In this document: piece by piece, positions 3,001 through 51,474 of the stretch
How the letters are laid out: every line of letters begins with the position of its first letter
Numbering within the stretch: position 1 is the stretch's first letter
NCBI GenBank assembly: GCA_003116975.1
Contig: BGKB01000090.1
Span: 310,001-374,000 of the forward strand
Direction of reading: 5' to 3'
Length of the DNA: 64,000 nt
Source: Aurantiochytrium sp. KH105
Lineage: Eukaryota; Sar; Bigyra; Thraustochytrida; Thraustochytriidae
Program-made: the position numbers and the translations under genes
The notes under the pieces: model-generated
What the model saw: the letters and a program-made list of their open reading frames with translations, nothing else
Databases searched by the model: none
Told to the model about the DNA's origin: nothing

Positions 3001-3530
3001 CCGAGATCCTCGAGCTCGAGTACATTGGCGAGCATGCGTGAGCGCACTCGAGCCTCGTCCAATGATCCTTTCCACAGAGTCTTATTGGGATCGAGCATGC
3101 CAACGTTTTCGAGCACTTGGAGCGCCTCCAGTTCGGTTGACAATTTCATGCTCAAATGCGCCTCATCACCCTTGAGAGGCATGCCACGCAGCTTGGCCAT
3201 TCGCTTGCGTCCGGCAAACACAGGCTCGAACTCTCTTGGGATCGGATTCGCCTCCCATGGGAGTAGCTTGCGCGCCCCTTTGCTGCGGTTTCCGTCGCCG
3301 TCCAGGAGATTGTCGAGGCCATCCATGTCTGTGCCCTCGGCGTTCTCCTTGGCTTCGGCCGCTGCTGCTGCCAATGCTTCTGCTGCAGCTGCTCTTCTTG
3401 CAGCAGCTTCTTTAGCAGCCTTTTCTTCCTGTTCGCGCGCGCTGACGAGGCCCATTTTCTCCGTCAACGACTGCGTCGACGTCGTCGTGTACCCGCGCGC
3501 CGCCTTGTTCTTGGTCTTGCGCTTGCCCAT
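1..3530 (-). CDS. DHX29: DEAH-box RNA helicase, DHX29/DHX57-like (3' end outside window)
   Basis: The frame is open from the ATG at 3530 to the left edge (1,176 residues visible). Seen: Ala/Glu/Lys-rich N-terminus; a UBA-like helical segment near residues 165-205; a polyQ and Glu/Lys-rich stretch near 240-330; then the helicase core with motif I GQTGSGKTT (about 694-702), DEVH box (800-803), SATI (about 835) and motif VI QRAGRAGR (1104-1111). It breaks off in the segment leading into the helicase-associated domain (FLKNALDPP). DEVH rather than DEAD marks the DEAH/RHA family of NTP-dependent RNA helicases. The UBA-like segment ahead of the core fits DHX29, a 40S-bound factor for scanning through structured 5' leaders, or DHX57; I cannot separate these without a tree. 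The ATG is followed by a basic MGKRKTKNK start. It is divergent from the RGG protein at 4684. Confidence 0.88.
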   Translation of the reverse strand, partial: MGKRKTKNKAARGYTTTSTQSLTEKMGLVSAREQEEKAAKEAAARRAAAAEALAAAAAEAKENAEGTDMDGLDNLLDGDGNRSKGARKLLPWEANPIPREFEPVFAGRKRMAKLRGMPLKGDEAHLSMKLSTELEALQVLENVGMLDPNKTLWKGSLDEARVRSRMLANVLELEDLGFELEDITEALRRGGPDAEACLEWLSLHLDEEKLPPGWTQERVRKSVDRRELDVVVNQTEQPESRPKTSSDMAASKAEQQQQQQQQREAEEKDRKEQQRKVEEAAKAAKEKEDEKEKERQRIMLMYQQQQEEEEALEEEARASEQARAEELSLPPLERGRRLQARVNELRAEASAAMDISDQRRLGREIKHARSQLTDLLKRYPEIKSAISLAKDTKEKESTDTNPDTPNQNAQNAQTNDDKIATNGDDADEVDEGEVFADLFAEVEGADDGDAKKTSGEEAESEGPAYEKIDLGPMRGGLEPSKLLEQHVRRIYSKQTRVRFPAQTAPVPTMHACSAAFADITYAMPEGECCESKRMAQNYISLRALYDLASDMSYNLQMPIECQDLWNTWKTRDEHARLTAEHETKWSKIKVVDQVMEELASKLSTSQSKSTTGLEATISSSTVDDWSTGRSIGGALHEPYVDHTKESEALLDQFEARAQSEAYMSMAEERASLPVLSIEADLLRALDVSDVVIVSGQTGSGKTTQIPHLLMAHEMRSGRGALCNIACCEPRRISAVSVAERVSEEMADSKIGASDGYVGYQIRGERRAGSACRILYCTTGIILAQLRSDPLLLAYSHVVVDEVHERTVDSDFLLVVLRKIARERGEAQQRPLKVVLMSATIDLDKLANYFGGAPVLEAGGRTFPVTRFPLEDAVQLTGYACELESEYCRRDADQRATQSARMGQGTISWTESAKDVDYAGLTELDGSVYHENAMRTIFRLDESRVNFDLIESLLMLLTDRNWRPHADAPEHAPEARFQEALGALEAFKDARAGAILVFLPGMYQIQTLYNRLTHGRYFGDASRFLVLRLHSSLSSLKDEQRRVFEAPRAGVTKIVLSTNIAETGVTIPDVVYTIDSARVKQVGFNPARQMQSLEDTFVSRASLTQRAGRAGRVKPGIAFQLVSTQTQRDQLADFQQPEIRRVSLEGVCLQIMAMHAGGQEDDQLADPWRFLKNALDP

Positions 3531-4683
3531 CTTGACGGCGAGTGCTTTACTTCGTTGAGGGTCTGCTCTCGCGCTGCGTGCGCTCTTCCAGCCCGCGCGC
3601 CTCTCCCTCTTGCTCTCTCTGGCTCTCTCTCTCTCTCTTGCTTTCCTTCGCGCGTCTGCACGCCGTACGAGGCCTTTCCTCACACGCGCCTCGATCGCGC
3701 GCAAGTGGTTCTGGATAGGTCTGGCAGGTCATCATGATCATCCCGTCGTCATCACCCATCATTCATCATCATCATCATCAAGATCAGGTGCATCACAGCC
3801 CACACCTCTTGGCCTTCGTTTGAAGGAAAGAGAATAACTTTCGAGGGGAGGGACTCTGGCCATGCATGTTGCTTGAGATAACGATGGTGAATTGTGGCGA
3901 ATCGATTTGAGTTGACTTGACTTGGCATGACTTCGCTTGAGTCGCGTTGTGTTGAAGCTTGCTAAACGTTGACCTCGGCCTTGACTTTTAGACATTGAAG
4001 GTTGACTCGATGCTTGTGAGCCAAGGTCGCGTCGCGAGAGAATCGATGGAATATCCTGTCCTTTGTCAGTTCCTCGTAGGACTCCAGAGTAAATTACGAC
4101 GAAGAAGACACAAATGAACAAAGGATCAAGGACCATCTTACTCACTACACTTCATTCATCTTAGCTCGACAGCTAATTTTTCATTTCAAAGCACAGGTTG
4201 CAAACGAACGGGTCTGCCTTTTACCCAACAAATCGCAACAGACGAGCAAATCATTTGTAACGAGCGTTGGCACCTTGTCCCTGATCGAAATCGGGGTCGC
4301 ACTCGAGCGAGCGCTCAAGGCCCGCTCGCGGCCGCCAAGCACAAGATGAGCATCAAGCCCAACCACTTTCGCAAACCGTGTAGGCAGCCCGCCGCACTTG
4401 CGCGCGCTTGCCCGCTCGCTCGCTCGCTCGCTCGCTCGCTCGTGCGGCCCGAGCTTCGTCGCTCGGTTGCGCAAACGCGAGCTGAGCTCTCGCGGCCTGG
4501 CGAACGGGCCTGGCCGCTCAGCGTTGCGATTCGAAAGGGCCTCGACGCCCAGCGAGTTCGTTCGCACGCAGGGCGGCGCACGGAGAGCTCTTTTGCGCGT
4601 GCAGCGGGGCTCGGCCCAGTAGCTGCGGCCGCGAGGGAAAGGCGAGCACTCGAGCAGAAGGCCGCGACAACGCTAACAAGACA
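3531..4683. promoter_or_regulatory. divergent intergenic region, helicase / RGG protein
   Basis: This 1.15 kb separates two outward-facing starts, so it must hold both promoters and 5' leaders. It contains a CT-rich run just upstream of the helicase (about 3600-3660), a TCA/ATC triplet run near 3764-3781, and a tetranucleotide CGCT array near 4413-4442. Open frames here, such as 3759-4145 on minus, are low-complexity and resemble nothing known to me. No core promoter element can be assigned from sequence alone. Confidence 0.55.
4413..4442. repeat. (CGCT)n microsatellite, promoter-proximal
   Basis: About seven uninterrupted CGCT units lie roughly 240 bases upstream of the RGG-protein ATG. The same tetramer, in either orientation, recurs upstream of CLASP (15505-15530) and in the 7.1-7.8 kb region. 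Confidence 0.9.
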
Positions 4684-6141
4684 ATGGACAAGCTTCACAT
4701 GTCGCTCGACCAGCTGAGCAAGCTCAATAGGCAAAAAGCAGCTCCCGAGACGTCGAACAAGAGCGGCGACGCCGGCGCCAAGGGCAACAACAATAACAAC
4801 AGCAACAAGAAGAACAAGAAGAACACCGACAACAGGAAGAGCAACGATAACAGCAACAACAACGCAAGAGGCAATAATAACAATAGGTCCAAGGGTAGAG
4901 AAGGCGCTGGAGGTGCTCCCGGAGGATCTCGCGGAGACCGCGGACGAGCTCGCAACAGCGGTGGTGGCCCACGAGGTGAGCGCAACCCGGGCGGTGAACG
5001 CCACGCTGGTGGACCACGTGGCGATCGCAACGCCAATAGTGCGCGAGGCGAACGTAATCCTCGCGAGGATACCAATTCGCGTAGCAGAGATGGCCGAGGA
5101 CGAGGGGGCGGGCTTGCCGGAGGAAATCGACGGCAAGAAGCAGGGAGTAGTAGCCGAGGTGGCTTCGCAAGCTACCAGGGATCTTCCTCCGCGTCAGCAA
5201 GCGACCGACGATCTGGTCCGGGCGGCTGGGGCAACGCCACGCAGCAGACGAAACGAAATGACCGACGCGATGGAGAAGGCGACGGAAATCCGTCGTGGAA
5301 GCGGAGACGTACAGATGATGACAGATCACTCCGAAGCGGTGACACGCGCCGCGGCGATGGTCGACGTGGAGGTTTTCGTGGGCGCGGCGGGCGCGGTGGA
5401 GGCCTGGGAAGCGGGCGATACTATGACAGCCGCCCGCAAGGCCCCACACGACGACCGCAAGCCGCCCTGCCGCCAGTCAGCGAACACGCTAATGAAATCG
5501 AGCTTTCACGGGACGACAAGGACACTGTCAAGATTGCATTCCGCGGAAAGCCTTTGCTCGACGTGAAGAAGAGTGGCCTGATTGTGGTGCAATGTCCGGA
5601 GGCTGACCGTGATGAGGACGCCCTCATGGTCGCCAACATGGCATTGCGCCCTCTTGCATTGCAGCTCATCAATGTGTCTGGCTCACAGCATGATAAGGAG
5701 CAGTGGTATGTAACAGATGGTCGCGACTACAAGGTCAAGTGTCTCGAGCAAGGTGCTCTTGGCGGGCCCGAGTCGCTGAATGCTACCAAGCATCTCCGCG
5801 CCAACGTTCTTGCGGAGCTTGACGGTGAGAATCTATTATTTCGGAAATGGGGAAGCAATCGGAATGTGACGACGGTTCTGAATGCTGTGACCAAGCTTTA
5901 CAAGATTTGCGTTCAGAACCATTGGCAAAAGCCTCATTTTCATTACGACCGCAAGTTTGTGGACGACAAGCCGGGCTTTGTCTTTAGCGTGAGTCTTCCC
6001 GAGTTCAGCATCGAGGTTCCCAAGGACCAGCGTAACAATTGGGATGCGGACATGCGTGTCGCGAAAAACAAGGCTGCCCTCAAGGCGCTCGAGATTGTTG
6101 AAAAGCTCCAACCCGCTGCAGCCGCTGCACCTGCAAACTAA
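4684..6141 (+). CDS. RGG-rich RNA-binding protein with UAP56-binding-like motif and dsRBD-like C-terminus (candidate mRNA export adaptor)
   Basis: 485 residues from the ATG at 4684. Seen: the N-terminus MDKLHMSLDQLSKLNRQK resembles the UAP56-binding motif of export adaptors such as ALYREF and UIF/FYTTD1 (consensus close to MDMSLDDIIKLNR). Next come an Asn/Lys-rich stretch (about 30-75) and a long Arg/Gly-rich region with many RGG/RG units (about 75-265). The folded C-terminal half runs from about 280 to 475. Its last part (about 412-475) has the phenylalanine-rich strands and closing Lys/Ala helix (AKNKAALKALEIVEKL) of a double-stranded-RNA-binding fold. Known: adaptors with this motif load onto nascent mRNP through the DEAD-box ATPase UAP56 and hand it to NXF1. 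Inferred: a nuclear mRNA export or mRNP assembly role. It could instead be a general RGG-box chaperone. A possible AATAAA overlaps the stop. Confidence 0.85.
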   Translation: MDKLHMSLDQLSKLNRQKAAPETSNKSGDAGAKGNNNNNSNKKNKKNTDNRKSNDNSNNNARGNNNNRSKGREGAGGAPGGSRGDRGRARNSGGGPRGERNPGGERHAGGPRGDRNANSARGERNPREDTNSRSRDGRGRGGGLAGGNRRQEAGSSSRGGFASYQGSSSASASDRRSGPGGWGNATQQTKRNDRRDGEGDGNPSWKRRRTDDDRSLRSGDTRRGDGRRGGFRGRGGRGGGLGSGRYYDSRPQGPTRRPQAALPPVSEHANEIELSRDDKDTVKIAFRGKPLLDVKKSGLIVVQCPEADRDEDALMVANMALRPLALQLINVSGSQHDKEQWYVTDGRDYKVKCLEQGALGGPESLNATKHLRANVLAELDGENLLFRKWGSNRNVTTVLNAVTKLYKICVQNHWQKPHFHYDRKFVDDKPGFVFSVSLPEFSIEVPKDQRNNWDADMRVAKNKAALKALEIVEKLQPAAAAAPAN

Positions 6142-6146
6142 ATAAA
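6141..6146 (+). promoter_or_regulatory. possible polyadenylation signal AATAAA
   Basis: AATAAA begins on the last base of the stop codon of the RGG-protein gene. If used, the 3' UTR would be only a few tens of bases. Motif match only. Confidence 0.3.
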
Positions 6147-6304
6147 CCTACCTTGTGATGCATTGTTATGCTCTACTCCTCGACTCGACTCGACTCGAAC
6201 TGACGAAGGCGCCTGGTCGGTACTATCTTTGGACTAAATTACGCCTGAAGCTATGTTTCCGTTGCCATCAACATTTCGCAGGCCGTAGAGACTTTCAAAA
6301 CACA

Positions 6305-6428
6305 TGAAAGAAAGGAAAGGAAAGGAAAGGAAAGGAAAGGAAAGGAAAGGAAAGGAAAGGAAAGGAAAGGAAAGGAAAGGAAAGGAAAGGAAAGGAAAGG
6401 AAAGGAAAGGAAAGGAAAGGAAAGGAAA
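6305..6428. repeat. (AAAGG)n pentanucleotide tandem array
   Basis: About 24 near-perfect copies of a five-base unit, purine on the plus strand, start about 165 bases past the RGG-protein stop. It reads open in every frame, which creates spurious repetitive frames (Lys/Gly/Glu on plus, Phe/Leu/Ser/Pro on minus). A polypurine tract of this length can form triplex DNA. Confidence 0.97.
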
Positions 6429-7060
6429 AATAGAAAAAGAAAAAATGAAAAGAGAAAGGAACTATCGCTCTCGCTTCGAAAAGTCTCTCCCTCGTTAATT
6501 CTGCGCTTGGTGGTGCCTGAAAGCTCTTCGCGCGGCAAGTCATTGGCGTGGTGGTTACAGTTTCGCATATTTCGCTCCCGCTGCGACTTCATCGTCGCGG
6601 ACTGTAGCTGCGGCTGCGGAGACCTCGTGCATGCCAAGCCTCAAGCGCGGCCCACCGGTCACAGATTGCGTCGGTTTCATGTGCAATCGAAGAAACTGTG
6701 GCAAAGAGAGAGAGAGGGAGCGCACGGGCACGTGGCGGGAGGCCACTGGCAGAAACGACTGGAGTCCTTCCATCCGTTCTCATCCATCCATCCTTGTGTC
6801 CACGCGTTCTCGGCGGTCCGTGCTCCCATGCATCCGCGCGCGGCCCCGCCGCGCGTGCTCTCCGCGCTGTGGCTATGGCATGCGCCCGGCGAAGATGGCT
6901 GCAAGAATCAGCACGGCATGCAGCATCGCCTGCAAACGAATCGCCGAGCATCATCGGCGCCGGTCATTCACAGTCAAGCCTCGTCCAACGACCACACTTC
7001 CTCCTTTCGTGTCTTTCACGGTCGCTCACTCGTCTTCGCCCGCTCTCAAAATCCCCAACC

Positions 7061-11435: not shown

Positions 11436-14400
11436 TTATGCGCGCGAGGGACCGGTCGTGAGGCGAGGGCTCAATCCGCGCTTGACGTACATTTCAACGA
11501 GCGTGCGCTTCTCCTTCTTGAGCATGGCCAAATATGGGTGCATAACCGTCGCACCGCAGAGCCCGTTGAGCTCCACAAAGAGAAAAGTGGCCGCCTTGCG
11601 CACACGAGGTTGCTCGTGGTCGAGGGACTCAATGAGGACCGGGTGGACTTCTGTCAGAAGATCAAGCACTGCTGGCGTTGGCAAACGCCGCAGTACGACA
11701 CGAAGCATATCGATGCATGCATCCTGGGCGTCAACCGTTGGATCGCCAAGGAACTGCAGCACAATCGGCAGCAAACGTTGCGGGTCGACCGATTCGGCAA
11801 TATGTACGAGGGTCTCCTTGGCCTTGCACACGAGCGAGACGTCGACGTGCTGCCGCAGGAATGCCAAAATCGCCGGCACCATGCTGTCCAGCGAGCTCTG
11901 GAAGCCACGCGGGTGAAAGCGTGCGAGCGCAGAGACCGTCAAGAACGCCTGCACAATGACGCTGCGTGTTGGGTCCTTGAGCTCGCCAGCGCAGGCTTGG
12001 GCCAACTGTGGCGCCCAGTGATTCCAAGCGATAGCGTGCGAAGAAGCAGAGTCCTTGGCCCATGCCTCGATCTGCTGCAGCGCCAGTTCTCGCTCACTCG
12101 CGCTGCCCATCTGAAGTCTCTGCATCACGTCCCGCAATTCCACGTCTGCATGATCTCGAAAACCTGTGGACTGCGCCGTCGCTGTCTGCGTCGAACCCCT
12201 GCTATCCATCTGTGGTGATCGTCGAGCAGCTTGCTGTGGTGAGCGTCGAGCAGCCTGCTGCGGCGAGACTTGAGCCGTCTGAGGCGAATGTCGAGCTACC
12301 TGGGGGCTTGTCTGCGCGCCAGCGCGCGTTTCCGGCGAAACGGGTGGCGATGCCGCGCCGAAAGTTTGGCCACTTGTTTCGTGCTCGGCAACGTCAAACT
12401 CGCCGCCGTCGACAATCTCCAAGTTTTCTTCTACGATTGCCGTGGCATTCTCGTCCGAGATCGCCGTTGCATCGGAGCCAGCATCGTGCGCGTCTGCACT
12501 GCTGACCAATGTGTCAGCGCCACTCATCTCCGTCTCCATCGTTGCCGTTGACTTTGCAGGCGACAAGACCGGGTTTATGAGGGACAAGGACGCGGCATCA
12601 AAAGTCCCTTCTGTTTGGCGCCGGGGAGACTCGTGGGAAGGACGAGTCAAAAATGAAGCTCGTCGCGGGGGAAGTCCTGGCTTCACTGCCAAAGCTTCAC
12701 CCTCCTCGTGCTGGTCTTTTTTCGTCGACAGAGGCGCGTCCCGCTCGTGAGAGATTGCGCTGCCCGACGAAAATCGCCTCGAGATTGACGCCCTTCTCGC
12801 CTGAGACTGGGCTGAAGGTGCGGCACTCGGGGCGCGCGGCTGGTGCAGCAAGTGTTGGGAGGGCTGCGCGGGCGCGATGCGCGGTGCATCCTCGTGGGCG
12901 CGAAGGGCACTTTCGAAACCCTGGATGCTGTCCTTACAAGCCTTGACGGCTCTCTCGCGCACATCGGATGGCATCTCACTCGAGCAGAGCTCCCCAACAA
13001 AGAGGTTCGAGTCGTATCGGTATACCGCGACCAGGACGGAGGTAGCGGCCTTCCGCATCTCGAGGTTTCGCGAAGAGAGGGATCGGTCCACGCGCCGGAC
13101 AATTTGGTAGACGTGGAGCGAGTTTGCGAAGAATGCGCGAGTCGTTGGAATGACCTTTTGCAGATATGACATGGCCGCGAGTCGCTTCGAATCGCCCTTT
13201 TGTTTGCAGAGTTCACTGAGCATCGCGGCCAGCTGATCGTGCGGGAAATTGGAAAGACAAAGATCCATGGCTTCCCCCGAGAACCTTCGAATGGGCAGCT
13301 TTCCATCCTTGGTGCCCGCCAAGAGCGCCGGCAAGAGCTGCTTGAGATAGTCGCTGAATTCCTTGGCGTGTTTGGGAAGCATGAGGCAAATGCATTTGAG
13401 GACTTCCTGAGCCACCTTGTGGTGTCTCCGTTCATCGGCAGCCTTGTTGCAAAGCGCAGGGATGAGCTTTGCCGCGAATGCGGAAGAGAATCCATTCGGG
13501 CTCTCGATCAGCGCGTTCATGATGGCATCAACAGCATCCTTTCGAGCAGACCAGTGCGGGTTGCTCTCGAGTTCGCGGAGATTCGCGTTGAGAGAAGCCG
13601 GGGTGGCCTCGGCGCCTGCATCCTGGACACTCGACGCATAGTTGGTTGCAGCAGCAGAGCTCAAGGTTTTGGGGTTGCCGAGCACGTCGTGCGAAGCGGT
13701 CACAGCTGCCGATCCCGTCGAACGCGCGGTTGCATTCGAGGGACCCGGCTCAACTCGCATAGCAGAGCCGAGTGCTGTTCTACCATCCGCAGCATTACTT
13801 GCTGTTGCAGCTTGACCTGCGGTTGGTCCAGCTCGTATGGGGCGTGTCGCGATGCGCTGCGCGCCGCCAACGCGTCTTGCTCCTGCTTGCGCTGTTGCTG
13901 AAGTTCGTGTCGCGCGCCCCGCAAGAGAGGCTGTCGAAGCGCCTCCTGTCTCGGCGTAATCTCCGGGCTGATAAGTGCGCGTCTCGCGCGTTCTGAGTGG
14001 CGGAGACGGCTGCGTTTCGCCCATGTTCTCGGCGGCGGCTGGGGCTCGATGCACCCGCTGCGGGCCCGCGCGAAGAGGTCGGCCCGCTGCACGCGAGTTT
14101 GCTGCATTTGGAGCAGCTGGCGGGGATACCTGCTGCTGTGGGCGTTGCTGCTGCTGCTGTTGTTGCTGTTGCTGCTGATGGTGAAGACTCAGAGGCGCAC
14201 GCTGGCGCACGGCAGGGGAGATGGGGCGGCGCGCGCTTGCGCCGCGGGACCCATCGTTTGCGCCAGTCTCGACAGCAAGGTCGTCGCTCGTTTTAAATGA
14301 CATCATCATGTCAGAGCGGAACGATCCGGCATCGGCCTCGCTGCCAGACTCGGAAGGCGTTTCAAGAGGACTGTGCGCGGCGGCCAAAACGTTGCCTGGA

Positions 14401-15395
14401 ATATTGCTCGCTGGTACAAAGGAGTCGCGCGGAGAAGACCGCGCACGGACTCGAAAGTCGTCGCCGCGCTCCAGCTGAACATCTGTTTGTACATCGCGCA
14501 GACGGCGCTGCGATGCAGCGTCGAGACCTGCCATGATTTGTTCGGCGATTTCCGGGCTTCTTGCACGTAGGACCCAGTAGCAGGCACGCGCAGCGCGACG
14601 CACGGCATCGTCTGCGTCATTGATTGCTGATTTGACGGCCGCGCGAACCTCGGCCATGCGGCGATTGCCTGCAGTCTTACTCATCGAGGGCCAGCGCCGA
14701 AGAGCGAGGTCGATGTACTCGACGCACACTAGCCGGTGGTGCACAGCCTTGTCGCTGCAGCCTTCGCAGACACGCGAGAGAATTTTGCCCACGCCAAGAG
14801 GGGCAGCGCTCGATATAATGGCGCGAATGCAGCTATCTGCAGCTTCGGAGATAACCTTGATTGACACGCACGTTTGTTTGAGACAGGCCTCCACGACTGC
14901 GTAGGCAAGGGAGGAGAAGCGAGGCGGCCACTTCATGGTACCGCTGGCGATGCCTTCTGTCTGGTACGCGGCAGCAAGCGCGGCAAAGGTGCTGCATGCC
15001 TCCTTGACAATGACCGAGCGAAGTTCCTTGATTTGGTTCAGGAGCGGGTCCCGGAGACGGACGAGACATTCGAGGAACTCGTCGTACTTTGCGGCGCCGC
15101 GTTCTGCTGCCTTGCCGAGGCGCTGGAGCGCGGATCCGCGGTCGGACCAGTCGGCGTCTTTCTTTTCGAGCACCTTGATGGCAAACTCGCATTCCCTTGC
15201 AAGTTCCCTCAAGTCGATCGTTGCCGCGTTTTCGTCATTCTCTCCGTGCTGCTGCTGTACAGCGACCTGTTTTTCAAGCACCGCGGGTTGCCGTCCTCCG
15301 TTCTTCTCGCGAAGCGGTTGTTGTTCGGGCTGTTGCTGGTGCTGGTGGTGCTGGGACCCGTGTTGGCCCAGCGTCGCTAAGTTTTCCTTGTCCAT
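11436..15395 (-). CDS. CLASP: CLASP-family microtubule-stabilising protein (TOG domains)
   Basis: 1,319 residues from the ATG at 15395. Three HEAT-rich regions look like TOG domains: about 60-290 (DWSDRGSALQRLGKAAERGA opening helix), about 590-820 (opening SNPHWSARKDAVDAIMNAL, the signature CLASP TOG arrangement) and a C-terminal one, about 1080-1310. Long Ser/Pro/Ala/Arg-rich linkers between them carry polyQ runs (N-terminus and near 400-430) and a short RRSPQQAA-type repeat near 1035-1065. CLASPs bind the microtubule lattice, suppress catastrophe and promote rescue during mitosis, polarity and flagellar-root organisation. Length and TOG spacing fit fungal and metazoan CLASPs. I see no clear SxIP EB1-binding motif. 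A CGCT array lies 110-135 bases upstream of the ATG. It is divergent from the NEL-domain gene. Confidence 0.93.
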   Translation of the reverse strand: MDKENLATLGQHGSQHHQHQQQPEQQPLREKNGGRQPAVLEKQVAVQQQHGENDENAATIDLRELARECEFAIKVLEKKDADWSDRGSALQRLGKAAERGAAKYDEFLECLVRLRDPLLNQIKELRSVIVKEACSTFAALAAAYQTEGIASGTMKWPPRFSSLAYAVVEACLKQTCVSIKVISEAADSCIRAIISSAAPLGVGKILSRVCEGCSDKAVHHRLVCVEYIDLALRRWPSMSKTAGNRRMAEVRAAVKSAINDADDAVRRAARACYWVLRARSPEIAEQIMAGLDAASQRRLRDVQTDVQLERGDDFRVRARSSPRDSFVPASNIPGNVLAAAHSPLETPSESGSEADAGSFRSDMMMSFKTSDDLAVETGANDGSRGASARRPISPAVRQRAPLSLHHQQQQQQQQQQQRPQQQVSPPAAPNAANSRAAGRPLRAGPQRVHRAPAAAENMGETQPSPPLRTRETRTYQPGDYAETGGASTASLAGRATRTSATAQAGARRVGGAQRIATRPIRAGPTAGQAATASNAADGRTALGSAMRVEPGPSNATARSTGSAAVTASHDVLGNPKTLSSAAATNYASSVQDAGAEATPASLNANLRELESNPHWSARKDAVDAIMNALIESPNGFSSAFAAKLIPALCNKAADERRHHKVAQEVLKCICLMLPKHAKEFSDYLKQLLPALLAGTKDGKLPIRRFSGEAMDLCLSNFPHDQLAAMLSELCKQKGDSKRLAAMSYLQKVIPTTRAFFANSLHVYQIVRRVDRSLSSRNLEMRKAATSVLVAVYRYDSNLFVGELCSSEMPSDVRERAVKACKDSIQGFESALRAHEDAPRIAPAQPSQHLLHQPRAPSAAPSAQSQARRASISRRFSSGSAISHERDAPLSTKKDQHEEGEALAVKPGLPPRRASFLTRPSHESPRRQTEGTFDAASLSLINPVLSPAKSTATMETEMSGADTLVSSADAHDAGSDATAISDENATAIVEENLEIVDGGEFDVAEHETSGQTFGAASPPVSPETRAGAQTSPQVARHSPQTAQVSPQQAARRSPQQAARRSPQMDSRGSTQTATAQSTGFRDHADVELRDVMQRLQMGSASERELALQQIEAWAKDSASSHAIAWNHWAPQLAQACAGELKDPTRSVIVQAFLTVSALARFHPRGFQSSLDSMVPAILAFLRQHVDVSLVCKAKETLVHIAESVDPQRLLPIVLQFLGDPTVDAQDACIDMLRVVLRRLPTPAVLDLLTEVHPVLIESLDHEQPRVRKAATFLFVELNGLCGATVMHPYLAMLKKEKRTLVEMYVKRGLSPRLTTGPSRA

Positions 15396-17017: not shown

Positions 17018-20000
17018 ATGCTGGGCCGCCTGCTGTGCCGGCCGGGCGCCGCGCGGCGCAGGGGCTCGGCGCCGCCAAGGGTCCCTGGCGACGCAGCTGA
17101 CGCGGACGAGGAGGGCCCAGACGAGAACCGCGCTGCGGAGAACCTCGAAGGCGACGCCAGCGCGAGCAGCGCGGGAAGACGCCGCGCGCGGAGCGCGGCG
17201 GTACCGCTGCGCGAGACCCCGGGTGAGCCCGCGGCGCTGGCGCAGCGAGATCGACGGCGTCGAGCAGCTGCACCGGCGGCAGGAGCAGGAGCGCCCGACC
17301 GCCGAACCGCCGCAACCGGTGATGGCAATCGCGCCACGAGCAGAACGAGCCTGTCGTCACGCCGCAGGGTGCGACGCAGCCGGCGCAATCATCGGAATGG
17401 TGCCACGCAGGCCGAGGGAGCCGCACACGAGGACGACGCTTCCTCGTGGAACCTCGTCGAACCGCAGTTCTTTGAAGCCGTCCGGGCGGCTGGCAAAAGC
17501 CGTTTAACAATCACGTCAGAACTCTGGCAAGATGTTCTCTTCAAGCACGAGGCTTTCCTGGCGCGCCTCCAGGAATGCAATGTCAGCGAAATCGACATTC
17601 GTGGCGCAGATATCAACGAGGACCTTGCAACACAACTTGTAGAGGTCGTCGGAAACAACCTGCAGCACCTACGGTCCTGCCGCATCGAAGCGTGTAGACT
17701 TCCCGGACGCGGCCACGCCGGCGACTTTGTCGAAGCGCTTGGTTGCCATCGCTCCAAGCTCGAAACTTTGTCTCTTAAAGGAAGCGCCGTTCAGGAATGC
17801 GGCAAAGTATTTGCTTTTCGAGGCTCTATCTCTCACGACGAGGTCTCGGGCGTCATCGAATATGACTATTGGTCCACCGTCCTTCTCAAGCACGTCGCGC
17901 TCAATTCTGGCCGATGGTTCTATGAAGTAGCCTTTGAACACCTTGCTAGCGGCGAATTCACGCAGATCGGCTGGGCAACGCCAGAGTTTACGTGTAACAG
18001 TTTTATCGATGGAGTGGGCGACGATGCCGAGAGCTGGGCCTTTGACACCGTCCGTCGATCCATATGGCATGATGGGCAGGAAACAAATTGGGGAGAGCGC
18101 ATGGAAGAAGGAGATACCCTTTGCTGCGTCGTAGACTTTGAGCGCGGGGAGCTGGCCTTTGGACGGAATGGTTCCTTCGATGAGCCCTTTGGCGTCGCAT
18201 TCGAAATTCCACCCGGAATCTCCTTGCGCCCTGCGCTCACCGCAGGGAAAAATATGCGGCTGGCTCTTAATGTGAGCGGCGCGCAATCCAACCCACCCCA
18301 GGACGCTCTACCCATTTCAGAGTGGATCCGAGGCGAACACCGTCTCAGTACGCAATGGTTTGTAGGTAGCATTTGCCGACTTGCTGCGCGTAAAACGTTG
18401 CGGACCCTGGATCTATCAAACAACGACCTCGATGCAGCGTCTATTGCTCGAATCATTGCTGCGGCGCAGGCTCTTCCCATTGAGAGCCTCCTCCTTGCGG
18501 GCAACAATGCATCTCGCAAGTCTGCTCTGGCCGTTGCCTCGCTCCTCGCTGAGAATGGCACGCTACGTGTACTCGATCTCTCTCGAAACTGCCTCGGGCT
18601 CAAGCGTCGTCGTGTCTCGGTGTCGAGCCGTCGAGATGACAAAGATCTCAACGCAGAAGAAGATGATGAAGATCTCAACGCAGAAGAAGATGCCGAAGAA
18701 CAAGGAGGAGTATTCGGCAGCGACGGAGGCAGCGGACCGGTCGGCCGTCTCGATGATCCGCGCGAGCATCCCGTTTCCCATTACTTGTGCAACGCACTCG
18801 CTCACAACAGCACGCTGACGACTCTTTTGCTCGGCGACAACGCCCTCGATACATCGGAGACCAGCTCCATCGCAGAGGCTATCGTGCACGGTGGCAGTGT
18901 CCGCACGCTGTCTCTTGCGGGCAATAAAGTCTCGTCGGTCACAGTGGCTTCGCTTCTTTCGAGTGAGTCTGCGCTGGAAGATCTCGATCTGTCTCGCATT
19001 GGTCTATCGGAACAAGGTGCCGGGGCAATGGATTTGCTTTCCATGTCAGCCCAAATTCGCCGCATCGTCCTCCGAGGAAACCCGCTGGTCACGCCTCCGC
19101 GGCGCAGTCGTTCGCGATCTAGCGTAATTCGTCCCACCAGAAGCAGTTCTGCCCGTGAAGCGGAAGCAAGATTCCGCTCAAGGTCCTCTGGGGCAGCCAG
19201 GGGACTTGCTGCTGCAGCGCACTCGCTCCTTCAAGTTCTCTCAAGGTCTTCCACGCTCGAAAGCGTGGATCTCGGCAACACCGGTCTCGATTTTCGCTAT
19301 ACGGAGGATCTTGCGCGACTTGTCGTGGGTAACCCGGCTTTGGAAGTCCTTCGCATCGATAAGAACATGCTCGAAAGCGAGTCAATGGAAACGCTCGCGC
19401 GCGCCCTCGAGACATCGAGTCTCCAGGAACTTGACGTCAGCGAAAACCCGATTGGCGCGGAAGCTTGCGCGCAAATGCTCTTTAGCGCCTCCAAACTCAA
19501 CGTCTTTGTGGCTCGTATGTGCGAGATTGGGCTCGAGACCGCAGAGGAGGACTCCGTCGCGCTCACCGCGTTAACCAATGCCGTGCGGCAGCATGAGTCT
19601 CTTGTGTGTCTCAATATCGGCCAGAATGCCCTCCGATCGCCGCAAGTCGCAGCTCAACTTCTTGGAAGTGCAATTTGCGGCAGCACATCCCTTAGGCGTG
19701 TGAACATGAGTGGAATGGGGTTTGGACTCGATGGCATTCGCGGTCTCGTGCAGGAACTACAAGAATGTGGCGATCTGGATGAGCTCGATCTCTCCGAGAA
19801 CGATGCTTCCTACAAGGGCATGCAAAATTTCATATCCTTTGCGCTTGATCGCCGGGCAACGGTGAAAGCGTTGAAACTGTCTGGAAATTCGCCAAGCGAC
19901 GTACTTCCACATGTTCTCGAATCACTCGCAAGTCTCTCTTTTGGATCACGACTCTCACTGTTGCGTCGCATGATGCTCACCGTCCCGGAAGACCCAGGCC

Positions 20001-21871
20001 CACGTCTCGAAGCCTTTCTCGCGTCTTCGCTGGTATCCCGCCACTATGTGTGGACGCGCCGCGCGATGGACATCGCTGAGACGGACCTGTCCTCATTGTC
20101 GGATCTTTTGCGACGCATCCAGGTCGGTGTTGAACCCCACGCGGACTTGTGGACCGTGCGAAGCGGACTCCACTTCCACAACGTTGAGCAGGACCTCATT
20201 CTCGACGAGAGTTTTCAAATTTTCGATGGAGAGTTGTGTTTCGACGATTGCCGAGGTGATATCTCAATTCCAGAGAACTTGCATGTTGATGGCTTTCTCA
20301 ATTTCATGCGATGCTCTGGCGAAGTGCTCATCGGCGCAGGGCTTCATGTTGACCAGGACGTAAGCATTGAGGAGGTTCCGCGTCTAACGACGTTGCCTGC
20401 AAACATGTATGTCGGTGGCGCCTTTTTTGCAATGGACTGCGACGAGCTCGGGGACTTTCCCGCGGACTTCGTCCAGGCGCCAGATCGCATGTTTGTCCTG
20501 CAGCGCTGTCCGAGCGTGGGATCTCTCCCAGACACGTTGGTGCAGACTCCGGGACGCATGATTCTCATGAATACAGGTATTAGTTCGCGTGAGATCGTTC
20601 GTCTTCAAGGCATCTCGCACGAGGGAATGTCTGTTCGCAGCCCGTTTATGGGCGCGTTGTACATATTACAGCCCGATTTTACCACGCTTCAGGCGGGTGT
20701 CAAATTTTGGGTAGGTCGCAGCAAATTACCAAACATCGCCATGGAAGGATTTGCACGCGAGGTGGATCAAGCGGTGGGCAGCTACTTTCGCACTGGCGTG
20801 ACACAGTTTCTCTCAAAGCTACGCATGGCCAAAGAGTTTCAGGAAGCGGGGCTGCGACAGGGCCTTGCACGCCGCGTAGTCGAGGTTCTTCGCGCAGTCG
20901 TGGACGAAGTTGACGCACGAGATTCGTTACTGGTTCGTATAAATGACAGCGTCGATGCTTGTGGAGATAAGCCCATCTGGGCACTTAATCAAATGCAGGC
21001 CGTCATTGCAACTGCGCGCGCTCGCGGCGACCGCCAAGCTCTGCGCGAGCTTGGGCAAAGTATGATGCGTCTTGGAGTTGTGCACGAGCATGCTCGACGC
21101 AAAGTGTTGGCGCTTGAACGCGACAAGCAAGCTGAGCGCGAGCGTCGGGGAAGCTCTGGCTCCAGCTTATCGGAGGAGAGCGAGGTCGACGAGATCTGTG
21201 TCTACCTTTTCTTTGAAATTGAGCTGCGCGAGCGGCTGGGGCTTACTGTCGCTGCCGAGAGCATGCTGTTTCCGAATTTTATTCCAATCTCGGCCGAGGA
21301 GCTGGACGCTGCGGCAAACGAGGCTTTGGCCGTCAGCGAAGAGGCCTTTGATCAATGGTTGGCCTCGTGGCCCGAATGGCAGCGACAGTTGCGCTTTGAG
21401 GTGGCCAAGGAGATGTCCTGGGCCTCCGTCCCGCTAGCTCACATTCCCAAGCGGGTGAGTCTAAGTCAAACTACCTTTCTCGGTGATCCATTGACGGAAC
21501 CTGTTCTCCTGGGCAAGGCTGGGCCTTGGCAGCTCTCAGAGCTTTTGGACCGCTGGATCGAGACTGGGATGGACTTTAATAACGTGTCCTGGGGGTTGGA
21601 TGCTTTTGTCGAGGAGCTCGGCCGCTTAGAACCTGCGAGACGAGCGTCTTCACGCTCGTCATTGTCGAGCACGACGCGAGCCGGATTCCTCGCGTGGGAT
21701 CCAGACCGTCGCGAGAGTGAATGGTCACAAGACAGCACACCGAGTCGACGCTCTTCAATTGGGGGCCGTGATCAACGTGGAGACTCCCTTGCCAAGGTTC
21801 CATCACGAACTTCTCTTTCAAGGTTGTACTTGCGCAGAAGTAGGGGCAAACAACATGACTCCGTGGAGTGA
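17018..21871 (+). CDS. SPRY-LRR protein with C-terminal IpaH-type NEL E3 ubiquitin ligase domain
   Basis: 1,617 residues from the ATG at 17018; the frame stays open further left but only from non-ATG codons. Order: Arg/Ala-rich N-terminus; SPRY domain about 262-425 (GRWFYEV, QIGWATPEF, ESWAFDTVRRS, GDTLCCVVDFERGELAFGRNG); RNase-inhibitor-like LRRs about 455-1010 with LDLSNNDL-type consensus; a shorter LP/VGG-type repeat block about 1060-1170 (LTTLPANMYVGGAFF); then a NEL domain about 1215-1480. NEL evidence: catalytic Cys-x-Asp in DACGDKP (Cys1315), EICVYLFFEIELRERL, and FDQWLASWPEWQRQL, all in the order found in Shigella IpaH and Salmonella SspH enzymes. Known NEL proteins are secreted bacterial effectors that ubiquitinate targets chosen by their LRRs. 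Inferred: a functional host ubiquitin ligase acquired by transfer, with SPRY and LRR selecting substrates. No disabling break is visible. The C-terminal tail is Ser/Arg-rich. Confidence 0.9.
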   Translation: MLGRLLCRPGAARRRGSAPPRVPGDAADADEEGPDENRAAENLEGDASASSAGRRRARSAAVPLRETPGEPAALAQRDRRRRAAAPAAGAGAPDRRTAATGDGNRATSRTSLSSRRRVRRSRRNHRNGATQAEGAAHEDDASSWNLVEPQFFEAVRAAGKSRLTITSELWQDVLFKHEAFLARLQECNVSEIDIRGADINEDLATQLVEVVGNNLQHLRSCRIEACRLPGRGHAGDFVEALGCHRSKLETLSLKGSAVQECGKVFAFRGSISHDEVSGVIEYDYWSTVLLKHVALNSGRWFYEVAFEHLASGEFTQIGWATPEFTCNSFIDGVGDDAESWAFDTVRRSIWHDGQETNWGERMEEGDTLCCVVDFERGELAFGRNGSFDEPFGVAFEIPPGISLRPALTAGKNMRLALNVSGAQSNPPQDALPISEWIRGEHRLSTQWFVGSICRLAARKTLRTLDLSNNDLDAASIARIIAAAQALPIESLLLAGNNASRKSALAVASLLAENGTLRVLDLSRNCLGLKRRRVSVSSRRDDKDLNAEEDDEDLNAEEDAEEQGGVFGSDGGSGPVGRLDDPREHPVSHYLCNALAHNSTLTTLLLGDNALDTSETSSIAEAIVHGGSVRTLSLAGNKVSSVTVASLLSSESALEDLDLSRIGLSEQGAGAMDLLSMSAQIRRIVLRGNPLVTPPRRSRSRSSVIRPTRSSSAREAEARFRSRSSGAARGLAAAAHSLLQVLSRSSTLESVDLGNTGLDFRYTEDLARLVVGNPALEVLRIDKNMLESESMETLARALETSSLQELDVSENPIGAEACAQMLFSASKLNVFVARMCEIGLETAEEDSVALTALTNAVRQHESLVCLNIGQNALRSPQVAAQLLGSAICGSTSLRRVNMSGMGFGLDGIRGLVQELQECGDLDELDLSENDASYKGMQNFISFALDRRATVKALKLSGNSPSDVLPHVLESLASLSFGSRLSLLRRMMLTVPEDPGPRLEAFLASSLVSRHYVWTRRAMDIAETDLSSLSDLLRRIQVGVEPHADLWTVRSGLHFHNVEQDLILDESFQIFDGELCFDDCRGDISIPENLHVDGFLNFMRCSGEVLIGAGLHVDQDVSIEEVPRLTTLPANMYVGGAFFAMDCDELGDFPADFVQAPDRMFVLQRCPSVGSLPDTLVQTPGRMILMNTGISSREIVRLQGISHEGMSVRSPFMGALYILQPDFTTLQAGVKFWVGRSKLPNIAMEGFAREVDQAVGSYFRTGVTQFLSKLRMAKEFQEAGLRQGLARRVVEVLRAVVDEVDARDSLLVRINDSVDACGDKPIWALNQMQAVIATARARGDRQALRELGQSMMRLGVVHEHARRKVLALERDKQAERERRGSSGSSLSEESEVDEICVYLFFEIELRERLGLTVAAESMLFPNFIPISAEELDAAANEALAVSEEAFDQWLASWPEWQRQLRFEVAKEMSWASVPLAHIPKRVSLSQTTFLGDPLTEPVLLGKAGPWQLSELLDRWIETGMDFNNVSWGLDAFVEELGRLEPARRASSRSSLSSTTRAGFLAWDPDRRESEWSQDSTPSRRSSIGGRDQRGDSLAKVPSRTSLSRLYLRRSRGKQHDSVE

Positions 21872-22292: not shown

Positions 22293-23066
22293 TTATATCA
22301 ACATCTGTGACCGCTTTTCGAGGACGGAAGCTGCTGCCGCACCCATGCTTGATTGTTCGCGGCCCCCAAGATTGTTTGCATTTGGTGCTCCAAGGCCTGC
22401 TGTACCGGCGCTGGACAGCCCACGCGAAACTATCCCGGAAGAATGTACGACGCTCGCTCCATCCTCAAAACCTTGGGCGCGCATGCCTCGTGCAATGACG
22501 TTAATCTTGACCGTGACAGTGCCTACCGACTCAACACGCGTCGTCTCTCGCCCCTCTGATTTGCTTACGAACCTTGAGTCGTAGAATTCAGGCTGCAGTC
22601 CACGGATCCAAGCTATGAATTGCTGAAAATAAGAACTGCACACCGGACGAAAGAGGCGCACCTTCCGCACATAGGTGCCTGGGCGCGTTGGAATGTGTAC
22701 TGATCCGTAACCACGAGCAACATCTCTGCCCAGGGCGTCAATCTTGAAGACACTGAGAACAAGCCGAGGCCATCCGTGCGCGTTGAGGCTCTTGAATAGA
22801 ATTTCGAGGGGGAAATTCCATACTACTGAGCCTTCAGAACCTTCAGATTTGTTTGCAATTTGAGAGATGCCTTTGTCGACACCTTGGATAATCTCCCAGT
22901 GCTTGCCATATGTAAAGTCGTACTTGACATAGAGTCTATCCTCACCCTTGAGGTCTCCGGACTCTACTTGGCCCGTTGCGCTCAACAAAAATCCAACGCT
23001 GCTATTCTCATTTTTGTCAATGGCTGCCTGCGTCTTGAGCGATTTCGTGAGCGACAGCAAGTCCAT
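22293..23066 (-). CDS. B9D1: B9 domain-containing protein 1 (ciliary transition-zone MKS complex)
   Basis: 257 residues from the ATG at 23066. The B9 (C2-like) domain spans about residues 25-195. It matches B9D1 motif by motif: GQVESGDLKGEDRLYVKYDF, GISQIANKS, WNFPLEILFKS, ARGYGSVHIPTRPG and GRETTRVESVGTVTVKINV. B9D1 works with B9D2 and MKS1 in the transition zone at the cilium base, where it gates entry of membrane and soluble proteins. The human protein is about 204 residues; here an extra C-terminal tail of about 50 Ser/Gly/Ala-rich residues is added. The gene is head-to-head with the ODAD3-like gene across 893 bases, so both ciliary genes may share regulation. A TATATACG string abuts the ATG on the coding strand. 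Confidence 0.95.
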   Translation of the reverse strand: MDLLSLTKSLKTQAAIDKNENSSVGFLLSATGQVESGDLKGEDRLYVKYDFTYGKHWEIIQGVDKGISQIANKSEGSEGSVVWNFPLEILFKSLNAHGWPRLVLSVFKIDALGRDVARGYGSVHIPTRPGTYVRKVRLFRPVCSSYFQQFIAWIRGLQPEFYDSRFVSKSEGRETTRVESVGTVTVKINVIARGMRAQGFEDGASVVHSSGIVSRGLSSAGTAGLGAPNANNLGGREQSSMGAAAASVLEKRSQMLI

Positions 23067-36354: not shown

Positions 36355-39300
36355 GCCGCCGCCGCTCTCGGGCCTGCGTGCGCCGCGACACCTTCTGTTG
36401 CGTTTCTCCCGTGGGCCCGCGCGCTCCACCAACATCGACTGCTTGATTCAAAGCCTGCTCCTGCCGCTCCGAGATTTCCGCCCCTGTGGCTTGTGACTCT
36501 CCCAGCGGCGGCGCAGACATGGCTGCCTTGAGGTGGGATTTGAGTGGTGTCGGCGGATGTCTTGCCGCGAGATCCTGGTGAGTTTCGGCGAGATCCGCGT
36601 TCGAGTTTTCATGGAGGCTTGAGAGTAACTTGTGTCGACTTGGCGCAAGAGAGAATCTTGACTCCTCGAAGGGTTCGTCTTCCACAATCGTGTCACTCGC
36701 AACGACCTCCGAGGCCGAACGATGGAGAAAGGCATCGACAGTCTCTTGCGTGCCCTGCCGAGGACGGCCTACGTTCGCGTTGAAGAAGTCTTGTGGACTC
36801 TGCAGACTCGCCTCTCCCACATAACTCATATCAAAACCCATGGAGCTCGTCTCTTCACGGTCACGAAGCGGCTCCGTGTCCAGGTCGCCCGTTGTAGGCG
36901 ACGCAAGCTCGAAACTGAGTCCAGGCAAAGCCGATGTTCCACTGTTAGCCCCGACGCCGTCTTCACTCGCGGGATCGTCGCGAAAAAGGTCCTCAAGCTC
37001 TACGTCATCCACAGCTACGCGTTCGGGTGAGTTCTGCAACGAAGAGAAGACTGACCACCAGCTCTCGTCAAAAGCGCCGGCCGTCGAGCCATCAAGGGCT
37101 TGCAGAGGTGAGGCCGTGTCACTCGGGCCTTTGTTGCGAGCATCCACAATTGACAGGACTCTTGTCGGTCCATCTGCATGCACACCGATGGTGATATGTG
37201 GAAGATCTGTGGAGGATGTTGCCAATTGCAGTCGATCGAGTTCGATATGTCCAAGCGTGACAGGTCTTGCTTCTGACGCCGAGGCTCCAGCACCTGTTTG
37301 ATCCCAAAGCATATTCCAGATTCCATGCAGGAGACCCGACACCTTGCCTCGGATCGACGAGCTCGAAGCGTTGCGCCCTCCAACACTCGAGTTTGCACTG
37401 CTTGCCAAGGACTCCACGACAAGCATTCGCGACAGCGATAAGTCATCCCATGTGTAAGGACAACTGTGGTACGGAAGAAGGACCTGCTGCGTCTGTGGAG
37501 GAGCTCCGCGCTGTGAGCAAAAATCGAGCAACCACGGCAAACAGAAATAGCAGGGGACAAGCAACAGAAAGATACGTGTCAGTCACCGCGATTCTCCTAC
37601 CTTCTCGCTTCTCTGCCAATAAAATTGTTGCAGCCCAAGCTCACTTCCATTGAACCATTTCATCTCCCTTCCCCGCCAATGAGACTAAACCTCTTCCTTG
37701 GCATTACCCCTCCTCGACACTCATCCCTCTCATATGGTAAGCAAGCGAGCAGATCTTGATGCTCGGCAACTCCTCTTCCTTGGGAGTCTTTTTTTTTCCT
37801 GGTTGAAATTTTGCAAACTTTGCAACGTACCTGATACAAACGTAGAGTTTGCAAAGAGAGATTGTCAATTCGGTATGGCGGCAGCGACGGGAGTTCGGGG
37901 CGAAAGGTGATGAAGATGGTCGAACTTCCACTCGTGTTTGCCCGGTCAAGGGCTACATCTACGCGAAGAATGTACACAGCATGCGTGTGCTCATTGCGAA
38001 GACGCACGTAAAACTCTCCAATGTTGTCTATGCTAAAGCCTCCGCTCCAAATCCAGCCATACTCGTCGAAGCGCACGCAAATTTCCCGTGGAGCGCTGGC
38101 GTCCCTCCAATGGTAGGGAGTTCGTTCACCCGGACGAATACTGTCTGCTCGCTCTGACGCAGAGGTGAGCACCGATGTCGAGCCATAGAGACGCTGTTGC
38201 GCGTCGACACTCTTGGCGCTAAATAGTCGACTCACTACTCCGCCGAGACCAAACATTTCCGAACCTGAGCTCGTCGAGGTGCCATGGCCTAACGGCCGCT
38301 GCTTCACCTTGAGTGTGCGACCCAAGGCATTGATCAATACAAAGCGTGGCGTGAGTGTAATCACCTTTGTACGCCTAAATTGGCCTTCCGCGACAGCAAT
38401 TGAAACCCCGAGCACGAAGAGCTGCCGCGGACTGTCACTCTTGACGTTCCACTGCTGTTTCAGCTCGATGAGACCGGCGGTGCCAGCCGAGTCAAGACCC
38501 ATGGCCTGCGACCAGCCCGAGTCCGCGGCCTTGACGCAAATGCGACCCTTCTTGCGCCGCGTGTCTGTGTATGAGAACATGAGTGGGTCACTTGTTCGCT
38601 TGCCGCCATGTAGTACCGTGTCATCGAGAATATCGAGCAAGCCGCCAGGAGCGCGGCGCTCACCCGTGACACCCCGCCGATTAAGGTATCTTTCACCAAG
38701 TTTTTGGCGCATGCGGAGCCTGCGCATGACGGCCATCGCATCATTCTGCCCGGCAGCAATGTGACCCCCAAAAGTCTCCGCAAGACTTGCAGACCGTGAG
38801 GCCGAGCGCACGAGCAGGTGAAGATCAGAGAGGTTCACGATCCAATACGGCACAAAGAGAACCAGCTTACGGATGCCTCCGGGAAGTACGGAAAGCTCGG
38901 CAGACACAGTCAACGTGCGACGATTGGAGTCCTTGAGTTGGATCGATTCTTGACGAAGAATACCGACGCGAGCACCATCTTGCAATCCCGACCATCGCAA
39001 GTTGCCGTCACCGAGACCATCGGTACCCGCAATCACGCCTTCCTCTGTTTGCTTTTCGTCGCCAACCTTGCTTGCTTTGCCTTGGCTTGAGACACTCATG
39101 CTCGACGTGCTGTTGCTCTTGAGCAACGCCGCAGCACTCGAGGCCGCCGCAACTGCAGTGGGCGGGCCCACGCTCCCACGGCGGGGACGAATAAAGGGGA
39201 CTCCTTCGAGCTGCAGAACCGAGCTCCAGTCGAACCCAGAGAGTCGCACCGAAAGCGACAGGTCTGCTTCGGGGCGAATGCCCTGCCAGCGAAGGGAGTT

Positions 39301-51300: not shown

Positions 51301-51474
51301 TAGTTTAATAGGGACCCCTACCGTGTCAAAAGCGTCCTTGCGCACTTCGAGTTCGGAAAGAACCATATGGCCGCCGTAGATGCTTGTGCTCACCTTGTCT
51401 GGGCGAAAGCATCCATCTTCTACGTATGCACCAAGAACGCGATTAAGCAAGTTGGCAACCCAGCCCTCGAACAT
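32930..51474 (-). CDS. VPS13: VPS13-family bridge-like lipid-transfer protein (two exons: 51474-37831 and 37510-32930)
   Basis: About 6,074 residues, much longer than most VPS13 proteins (about 3,100-4,400). The start at 51474 gives MFEGWVANLLNRVLGAYVED, the classic chorein N-terminus; the frame open to 51759 starts only at a GTG and adds a poly-Glu lead. Order: chorein_N (1 to about 115); a long series of groove-forming repeat segments with many Ser/Asp-rich disordered insertions; VAB/SHR-BD β-propeller region about 3,600-4,548; in exon 2 the polyQ (about 4,934-4,955), an APT1-like segment (about 5,005-5,100), the VPS13_C/ATG2_C helices (about 5,450-5,735, GVFVKPLAGLLKLVKHVSVA) and a PH-like C-terminus (about 5,950-6,065). 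The family moves glycerolipids in bulk between organelles at contact sites; VAB and PH parts choose the membrane. The extra length lies mostly in low-complexity insertions, so the groove itself may be normal. Confidence 0.96.
36288..36353. repeat. (CAG/CTG)n array encoding polyglutamine in VPS13
   Basis: An almost pure run of CTG triplets on plus (CAG codons on the coding strand) giving about 20 glutamines, followed by CCG triplets. It lies in exon 2 between the VAB and APT1-like parts. Confidence 0.95.
37511..37830 (-). other. VPS13 intron (GT-AG, 320 bases)
   Basis: On the coding strand, exon 1 ends TATCAG, followed by the donor GTACGT; the acceptor CTCACAG precedes CGCGGAGCT. The splice is phase 0 and joins LRLYQ to RGAPPQTQQ, restoring the VAB-to-LPYxWD stretch that is continuous in other VPS13 proteins (here HSCPYTWDDLSL). 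A CTGAC branch-site candidate lies about 70 bases before the acceptor. Both exons are in frame at the junction. It is the only intron I can support strongly in this window. Unspliced reading continues for 57 codons to a stop. Confidence 0.9.

Follow-up and report, generated by a model that had tools for sequence, protein, structure and literature searches.

Organization of the locus

The window, i.e. the whole stretch of 64,000 nucleotides of Aurantiochytrium sp. KH105 DNA that was analysed, carries on its plus strand a single open frame for a predicted protein composed of a SPRY domain, LRRs, an NEL catalytic domain and a U-box-like tail, flanked on either side by a gene of the minus strand:

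11436..15395, minus strand: neighbouring CLASP gene (CLASP_N, E 2.3e-29)
17018..21871, plus strand: SPRY-LRR-NEL-U-box-like gene, single open frame of 1617 codons, 1617 aa predicted
17912..18274, plus strand: SPRY domain, aa 299-419 (Pfam E 1.1e-15)
18365..20047, plus strand: ribonuclease-inhibitor-like LRRs, approximately aa 450-1010 (Pfam LRR; limits approximate, set by eye)
20135..20617, plus strand: second, degenerate repeat region before the NEL domain (BLASTP against Endozoicomonas protein L050)
20798..21403, plus strand: NEL catalytic domain, aa 1261-1462 (Pfam E 2.6e-28; fold matches)
20960..20968, plus strand: catalytic Cys1315-Gly-Asp1317 (alignment conservation)
about 21458..21637, plus strand: U-box-like tail, model residues 262-321 (predicted fold)
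22293..23066, minus strand: neighbouring B9-domain basal-body gene (B9-C2, E 2.9e-50)

A sequence-only reading of this DNA had placed an NEL ubiquitin-ligase domain inside an intact eukaryotic gene, and both parts of that claim held. The frame is uninterrupted over its entire length, the PF14496 match exceeded its cut-off (99.4 versus 24 bits), and the motifs DACGDKP, EICVYLFFEIELRERL and FDQWLASWPEWQRQL were located where they had been placed, with the codons of Cys1315 and Asp1317 at 20960-20962 and 20966-20968, respectively. The predicted structure of the window protein contains the NEL helical fold, and in the structure comparison that had been suggested as a check the modelled domain matched SspH2, SspH1, SlrP and IpaH3.

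The SPRY domain scored 58.2 bits against a Pfam cut-off of 26.3, and sequence matches of this region in the PDB were ryanodine-receptor chains. Several Pfam LRR models matched the protein upstream of the degenerate repeats, and the PDB sequence matches of that region included a ribonuclease inhibitor and axonemal LRR proteins, for example DRC5 and TCTE1; the repeats at 20135-20617 gave no Pfam LRR match in the scan of the window protein. The SPRY domain, the repeats before the NEL domain, the U-box-like tail and the 15 further NEL genes described below (counted from the pairing of 32 loci) go beyond the sequence-only reading.

A protein search with residues 1040-1540, in which the 8000 candidates with most words in common were scored, yielded 18 matches. 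The best was a protein of Hondaea fermentalgiana encoded on a contig of 882,701 bases and named 'Ryanodine receptor 1' in its source; it showed 100% identity after rounding, and two differences were seen by eye between the 320-residue NEL slices of the two proteins. The start of the window gene (MLGRLLCRPG) is supported by the similar N-terminus, MGVLQRLLCRPG, of the relative P0003. The Hondaea gene model P0002 (2418 aa) omits an N-terminal piece and extends beyond the stop of the window gene, so that the ends given here for the gene are provisional.

A family of NEL genes in the nuclear genome

A profile search of the 76-Mb genome to which the window belongs revealed at least 32 PF14496 loci, each of which scores above the cut-off and is free of internal stops; the same search found no such locus in 14 control genomes. 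The 32 loci form 16 pairs whose near-identical members lie on separate contigs, the arrangement that assembly of both haplotypes would produce, and the allele of the window gene is L034 on contig C49. When one member of each pair was taken, the 16 paralogs showed 32-47% identity to the window domain and 19 invariant columns, among them the Cys and the Asp. C-x-D is present in all 32 loci, 30 of which were recovered by pattern, the pair C40/C64 having Met in place of the Lys that follows it.

Pfam was run on 15 of the 16 genes, two of which (L005 and L012) are cut at their 5' side; the sixteenth, C40/C64, is covered by the genome profile search. NEL was found in all 15. SPRY together with LRRs exceeded the cut-offs in two genes (the window gene and that on C156), a SAM partner in one (C82) and an EndoS-type LRR in two (C1 and C82), the last also matching more weakly in several others, and one gene (C54) gave a weak Arm match below the cut-off. 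The remaining scanned genes had no N-terminal partner over any Pfam cut-off.

Comparison of the NEL domain and tail between the alleles of all 16 pairs yielded 249 synonymous and 96 nonsynonymous differences (pN/pS 0.120). The least constrained pair was C367/C222 with a dN/dS of 0.43, and the window gene gave 0.154 over its whole frame. The family is under purifying selection between alleles. Relatives derived from transcriptomes were also found in the MMETSP/EukProt sets (P0007, P0022 and P0031, the headers of the last two giving taxid 1112570, Thraustochytrium sp. LLF1b), which suggests, judging from relatives and not from the window gene, that genes of this kind are transcribed.

That a bacterial contaminant or an assembly chimera lies behind the NEL gene is extremely improbable, and we rejected this explanation. 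The generally bacterial distribution of NEL is the sole point in its favour, against which stand the 16 near-identical gene pairs on contigs of up to 1.1 Mb, the presence of the gene in the independent Hondaea assembly and the fusion of NEL to SPRY and SAM. The neighbours are nuclear as well: the CLASP and B9 genes flank the window gene, in keeping with the ordinary nuclear setting that had been claimed, and genes for LCAT, an inward-rectifier K+ channel and VPS13 lie farther away. Codon usage of the whole window gene was host-like (r 0.92 against five neighbours). The NEL part alone gave 0.611 against host codons, with 0.610 for a bacterial gene, but this correlation is uninformative on short pieces, since the SPRY part, which is also short, likewise reached only 0.649. 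A giant-virus carrier was also rejected: in a scan of viral contigs, none of the seven pattern-matching stretches encoded a relative by tblastn, a comparison that reaches close relatives only.

Bacterial relatives and likely direction of a probable exchange

In a scan of prokaryotes, relatives were encoded at 179 loci. According to their titles, the 80 best of the 179 all belong to Pseudomonadota and span Bradyrhizobium, Burkholderiales, Pseudomonas and enterobacteria, which we take to represent several classes; 39 of these 80 were used, and 38 entered a first tree. Two loci of Endozoicomonas stood closest to the eukaryotes in this tree under midpoint rooting. L050 encodes xVxxxLxLxxC repeats followed by NEL and by a tail that reads as a U-box, in the same order as in the eukaryotic proteins, and L054, whose sequence is cut before the repeats, encodes NEL with such a tail and adjoins a gene that by eye resembles bacterial purF. 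A protein search with L050 gave 59 matches of 334-844 aa. Those with names came from Endozoicomonas (SCSIO W0465, E. acroporae, YOMI1 and unclassified members) and Thalassotalea G20_0; seven lay on 7,220,701-base contigs of Endozoicomonas SCSIO W0465, and several bore the source name 'NEL-type E3 ubiquitin ligase domain-containing protein'.

BLASTP of the window translation from 20135 to 21640 against L050 gave an alignment running from the repeats into the NEL domain (E 9e-31, 26% over 417 columns), and that of the eukaryote-type P0009 against P0071 gave E 1e-74 with 31% over 570 columns. At the sequence level, the eukaryotic proteins are homologous to the Endozoicomonas-type LRR-NEL-tail proteins from the repeats through the NEL domain. 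A regular expression for the LRR pattern before NEL matched 51 of 57 Endozoicomonas-type and 22 of 28 eukaryote-type proteins, and none of 37 other bacterial ORFs, for which stretches of at most about 830 aa were available. P0003, P0004 and P0005, to which the window gene is most closely related, are among the six eukaryote-type proteins lacking the pattern, the window protein itself standing outside this count. LRRs next to NEL are clear in other members of the family, those of the window protein lying farther upstream. The absence of the pattern in these six proteins counts against the explanation favoured below.

The conserved eukaryotic C-terminal tail of about 60 residues is predicted to adopt a U-box-like fold, with Prp19 as the best fold matches. 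The Pfam U-box model matched neither the window protein, at E up to 1, nor ten bacterial relatives. HMMs built from the bacterial and the eukaryotic tails did not cross-match in either direction at E up to 10, and comparison of profile against profile indicated a weak likeness (E 4e-4, probability 36%); the bacterial-tail profile matched none of the 37 other bacterial ORFs. In the bacterial tails, for which 57 of the 59 L050 matches were used, a Cys (100%), an Ile (86%) and a Pro (100%) are conserved, all of which are replaced in the consensus of 43 eukaryotic tails; the latter have Pro, Trp, Gly, Asp, Asn and Arg columns conserved at 84-95%. The Cys/Ile loop and the proline of Asn-Pro-Leu-Thr have thus been kept in the bacterial tails and lost from the eukaryotic consensus. 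In classical U-boxes these loops dock the E2. Docking of an E2 by the eukaryotic tail is therefore doubtful, and its role is more likely structural, in pairing or in an altered docking than in classical U-box catalysis.

Alignment of 81 NEL domains, 41 of eukaryote type and 40 bacterial, showed the Cys and the Asp to be conserved in every row. The eukaryote-type rows comprise 16 from the genome studied here and 25 matches, only some of which carry an organism name or come from a eukaryote-only source, the rest including metagenome entries. Lys follows C-x-D in 40 of the 41 eukaryote-type rows but in no bacterial row, Arg occupying this position in 26 of those 40. A tree of NEL domains with stramenopile matches included had been suggested by the sequence-only reading, and in a tree of 77 rows the eukaryote-type proteins formed one group (100/100), the other bacteria (100/96) and the Endozoicomonas type (99/95) likewise each falling on one side of a branch. 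This tree dropped 18 of the 38 prokaryote rows of the first tree, included 14 of the 59 L050 matches and omitted P0091, whose Gly after C-x-D was missed by the pattern. As three groups allow one possible arrangement, the unrooted tree alone gives neither a sister pair nor a direction. The grouping of Endozoicomonas type with eukaryotes is based on the LRR pattern and tail they have in common and on the first tree, in which midpoint rooting put the eukaryotes next to its two rows of Endozoicomonas (97/88).

Scores against the NEL profile, which was trained on bacteria, were 197-214 bits for other bacteria (four full-length matches, a fifth, partial one giving 65), 113-146 for the Endozoicomonas type (ten proteins) and 80-109 for the 32 loci of the present genome. 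This gradient and the several bacterial classes among the loci favour passage from bacterium to protist. We infer that the family goes back to a single ancient event in which a complete LRR-NEL-U-box gene was exchanged with Endozoicomonas-type bacteria, most likely in that direction.

Transfer in the reverse direction, whereby thraustochytrids or some other protist would have combined NEL with LRRs and a Prp19-type U-box, and the completed gene would then have been acquired for use as an effector by Endozoicomonas-type bacteria of marine holobionts, seems unlikely. It draws on the U-box being a eukaryotic-type domain, on the nearest match to the tail being the eukaryotic Prp19, on the mutual exclusivity of Endozoicomonas type and eukaryotes in an unrooted tree, and on the longer stem (1.1 versus 0.64) and deep paralogy of the eukaryotes; yet profile scores fall from other bacteria through the Endozoicomonas type to the present genome, the best 80 of the 179 prokaryote loci are widely spread as against one protist group, and the bacterial tail looks the more canonical U-box by its residues. 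The eukaryotic proteins might, on the other hand, be catalytically retired, their NEL fold and C-x-D serving as a ubiquitin-binding or scaffolding module. The shift from Arg to Lys after C-x-D would fit such retirement, as would a C-terminal end that the 37 other bacterial ORFs do not share. Among dead enzymes, however, one or more copies have normally lost the cysteine, whereas all 16 paralogs retain both Cys and Asp despite having diverged to 32-47% identity with the window domain, so that we regard retirement as quite improbable. The whole explanation that we favour, the exchange included, is that the window gene is one of about 16 nuclear thraustochytrid genes for NEL-class, cysteine-dependent ubiquitin ligases, and we consider it probable. 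NEL genes have apparently moved between bacteria and eukaryotes and settled as normal, maintained genes of the nuclear genome, and the earlier proposal of a domesticated NEL ligase gene gained by transfer is supported overall.

One eukaryote-type sequence, Durusdinium trenchii P0015, grouped weakly (97/61) with L011 of the present genome and with P0028, and P0005 and P0014 have source names similar to its own. Forcing the three into one clade gave a p-AU of 0.036, the rows having been chosen after inspection of the tree, a choice for which the test makes no correction. As their contigs measure 5.9-11.3 kb, contamination of the dinoflagellate assembly by a thraustochytrid is likelier than further transfers. 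P0015 also carries a PDCD5 fusion; in the present genome PDCD5 lies on C16 and C41 and not beside an NEL gene.

Proposed function and comparison with known systems

After the exchange, the gene would have been duplicated, and SPRY, SAM, Arm-like and further LRR modules would have been added. The window protein has the predicted fold, the cysteine and the aspartate that an NEL ligase requires, with repeats ahead of the domain. The following scheme is modelled on established work on NEL enzymes, in which the repeats of known family members keep the enzyme inactive as long as no target is bound. The LRR and SPRY parts may bind the target, in whose absence the adjoining repeat region would mask the cysteine. 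Once a target is bound, a charged host E2 would pass its ubiquitin to Cys1315 of the NEL domain, Asp1317 would aid the attack of the acceptor, and ubiquitin would then be transferred to the bound target. The tail could dock the E2, pair the enzyme, as the U-boxes of Prp19 pair, or brace the NEL domain. The likeliest role is that of a putative sensor or defence-like family marking intruders or the cell's own proteins. A bolder idea, which we hold to be rather unlikely, is that NEL is a working eukaryotic ligase class beside RING, HECT and RBR, of which thraustochytrids run a set of their own, with the tail relaying ubiquitin between the E2 and the cysteine of NEL. Protists like these, and not bacteria, would perhaps have been the workshop of the LRR-NEL-U-box arrangement, or of NEL itself, its adoption by bacteria as an injected effector coming later.

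To our knowledge, NEL ligases have been regarded as a bacterial invention without eukaryotic counterparts. PMC6557245 treats them as bacterial effectors, and PF14496 appears in a method table within PMC7029713. Among the matches listed from open-licence PMC, no title or abstract concerned NEL in thraustochytrids, stramenopiles or Endozoicomonas, nor NEL-U-box proteins in Endozoicomonas. Automatic annotation already flags the domain under source names such as 'ipaH7.8', 'SspH1' and 'NEL-type E3 ubiquitin ligase', while the source names of Hondaea records include 'Ryanodine receptor 1', 'Disease resistance protein TAO1', 'RPP5' and 'Importin subunit alpha'. About 16 maintained eukaryotic genes and an LRR-NEL-tail family in a genus of marine symbionts offer a handle on the origin of NEL, on an effector-type enzyme that either gave rise to a family of eukaryotic genes or was derived from one, and on a natural putative enzyme joining a cysteine-type ligase to a U-box-like fold.

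With the NEL effectors IpaH, SspH and SlrP (PF14496) the window family has in common C-x-D, the predicted helical fold, a position of NEL near the C-terminus and LRRs in front, which in the window protein are clear only farther upstream. It differs from them in consisting of nuclear eukaryotic genes and not of secreted effectors, in having Lys instead of the usual Arg after C-x-D, and in the other LRR pattern of most members, the other tail and some SPRY and SAM fusions. A type III effector is encoded by a bacterium and secreted, whereas the window gene is nuclear and belongs to a family of 16 allelic pairs. The U-box ligases Prp19 and UFD2/E4B resemble the tail in the predicted fold of its approximately 60 residues, but the Pfam U-box model gives no match, both loops by which classical U-boxes dock the E2 are altered in the eukaryotic family, and the tail of the window protein is joined to a cysteine-type ligase. 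RBR (RING-between-RING) ligases, in which a single chain contains both a module that docks the E2 and one with a cysteine, may be likened to NEL plus tail by analogy only. The Endozoicomonas and Thalassotalea proteins have the same order of VxGxLxLxxC LRR, NEL and U-box-like tail; they are shorter (334-844 aa), ten scanned proteins had neither SPRY nor SAM, and their tails keep Cys, Ile and Pro-Leu-Thr; in the window gene, the repeats ahead of NEL are degenerate.

Paired NEL loci in the KH105 genome

Locus L026, on contig C31, holds two NEL genes in head-to-head orientation, with about 0.5 kb separating their open frames; its allele is L028, on C93.
L026 (C31), 681-3269, minus strand: NEL gene, open frame
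L026 (C31), 3808-6801, plus strand: NEL gene, open frame
This arrangement likely arose by local duplication. One NEL pair of the same genome has its members on C4 and C55, each some 1.1 kb short of a contig end and possibly near a telomere.
C4, 1150-1677: NEL pair, one member
C55, 1168-1695: NEL pair, other member

N-terminus and neighbourhood of the window gene

17018-17047, plus strand: protein N-terminus, MLGRLLCRPG
37660-51759, minus strand: VPS13 gene, single open frame, 4699 aa
The N-terminus resembles those of the eukaryote-type relatives P0003 and P0005, both of which begin with Met-Gly, and may carry a membrane-anchor (lipidation) signal. As VPS13 occupies one open frame, long genes without interruption are not unusual here.

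Dinoflagellate-type and bacterial relatives

The NEL proteins P0015 (recorded as Durusdinium trenchii), P0005 and P0014 were placed amid thraustochytrid-type sequences, and probably reflect thraustochytrid contamination of a dinoflagellate assembly; P0015 joins NEL with Arm repeats and PDCD5 in one protein. An Endozoicomonas contig of 7,220,701 bases was the source of seven LRR-NEL-tail proteins (P0071, P0072, P0075, P0077, P0079, P0080 and P0081), and the family has therefore expanded on the bacterial side too.
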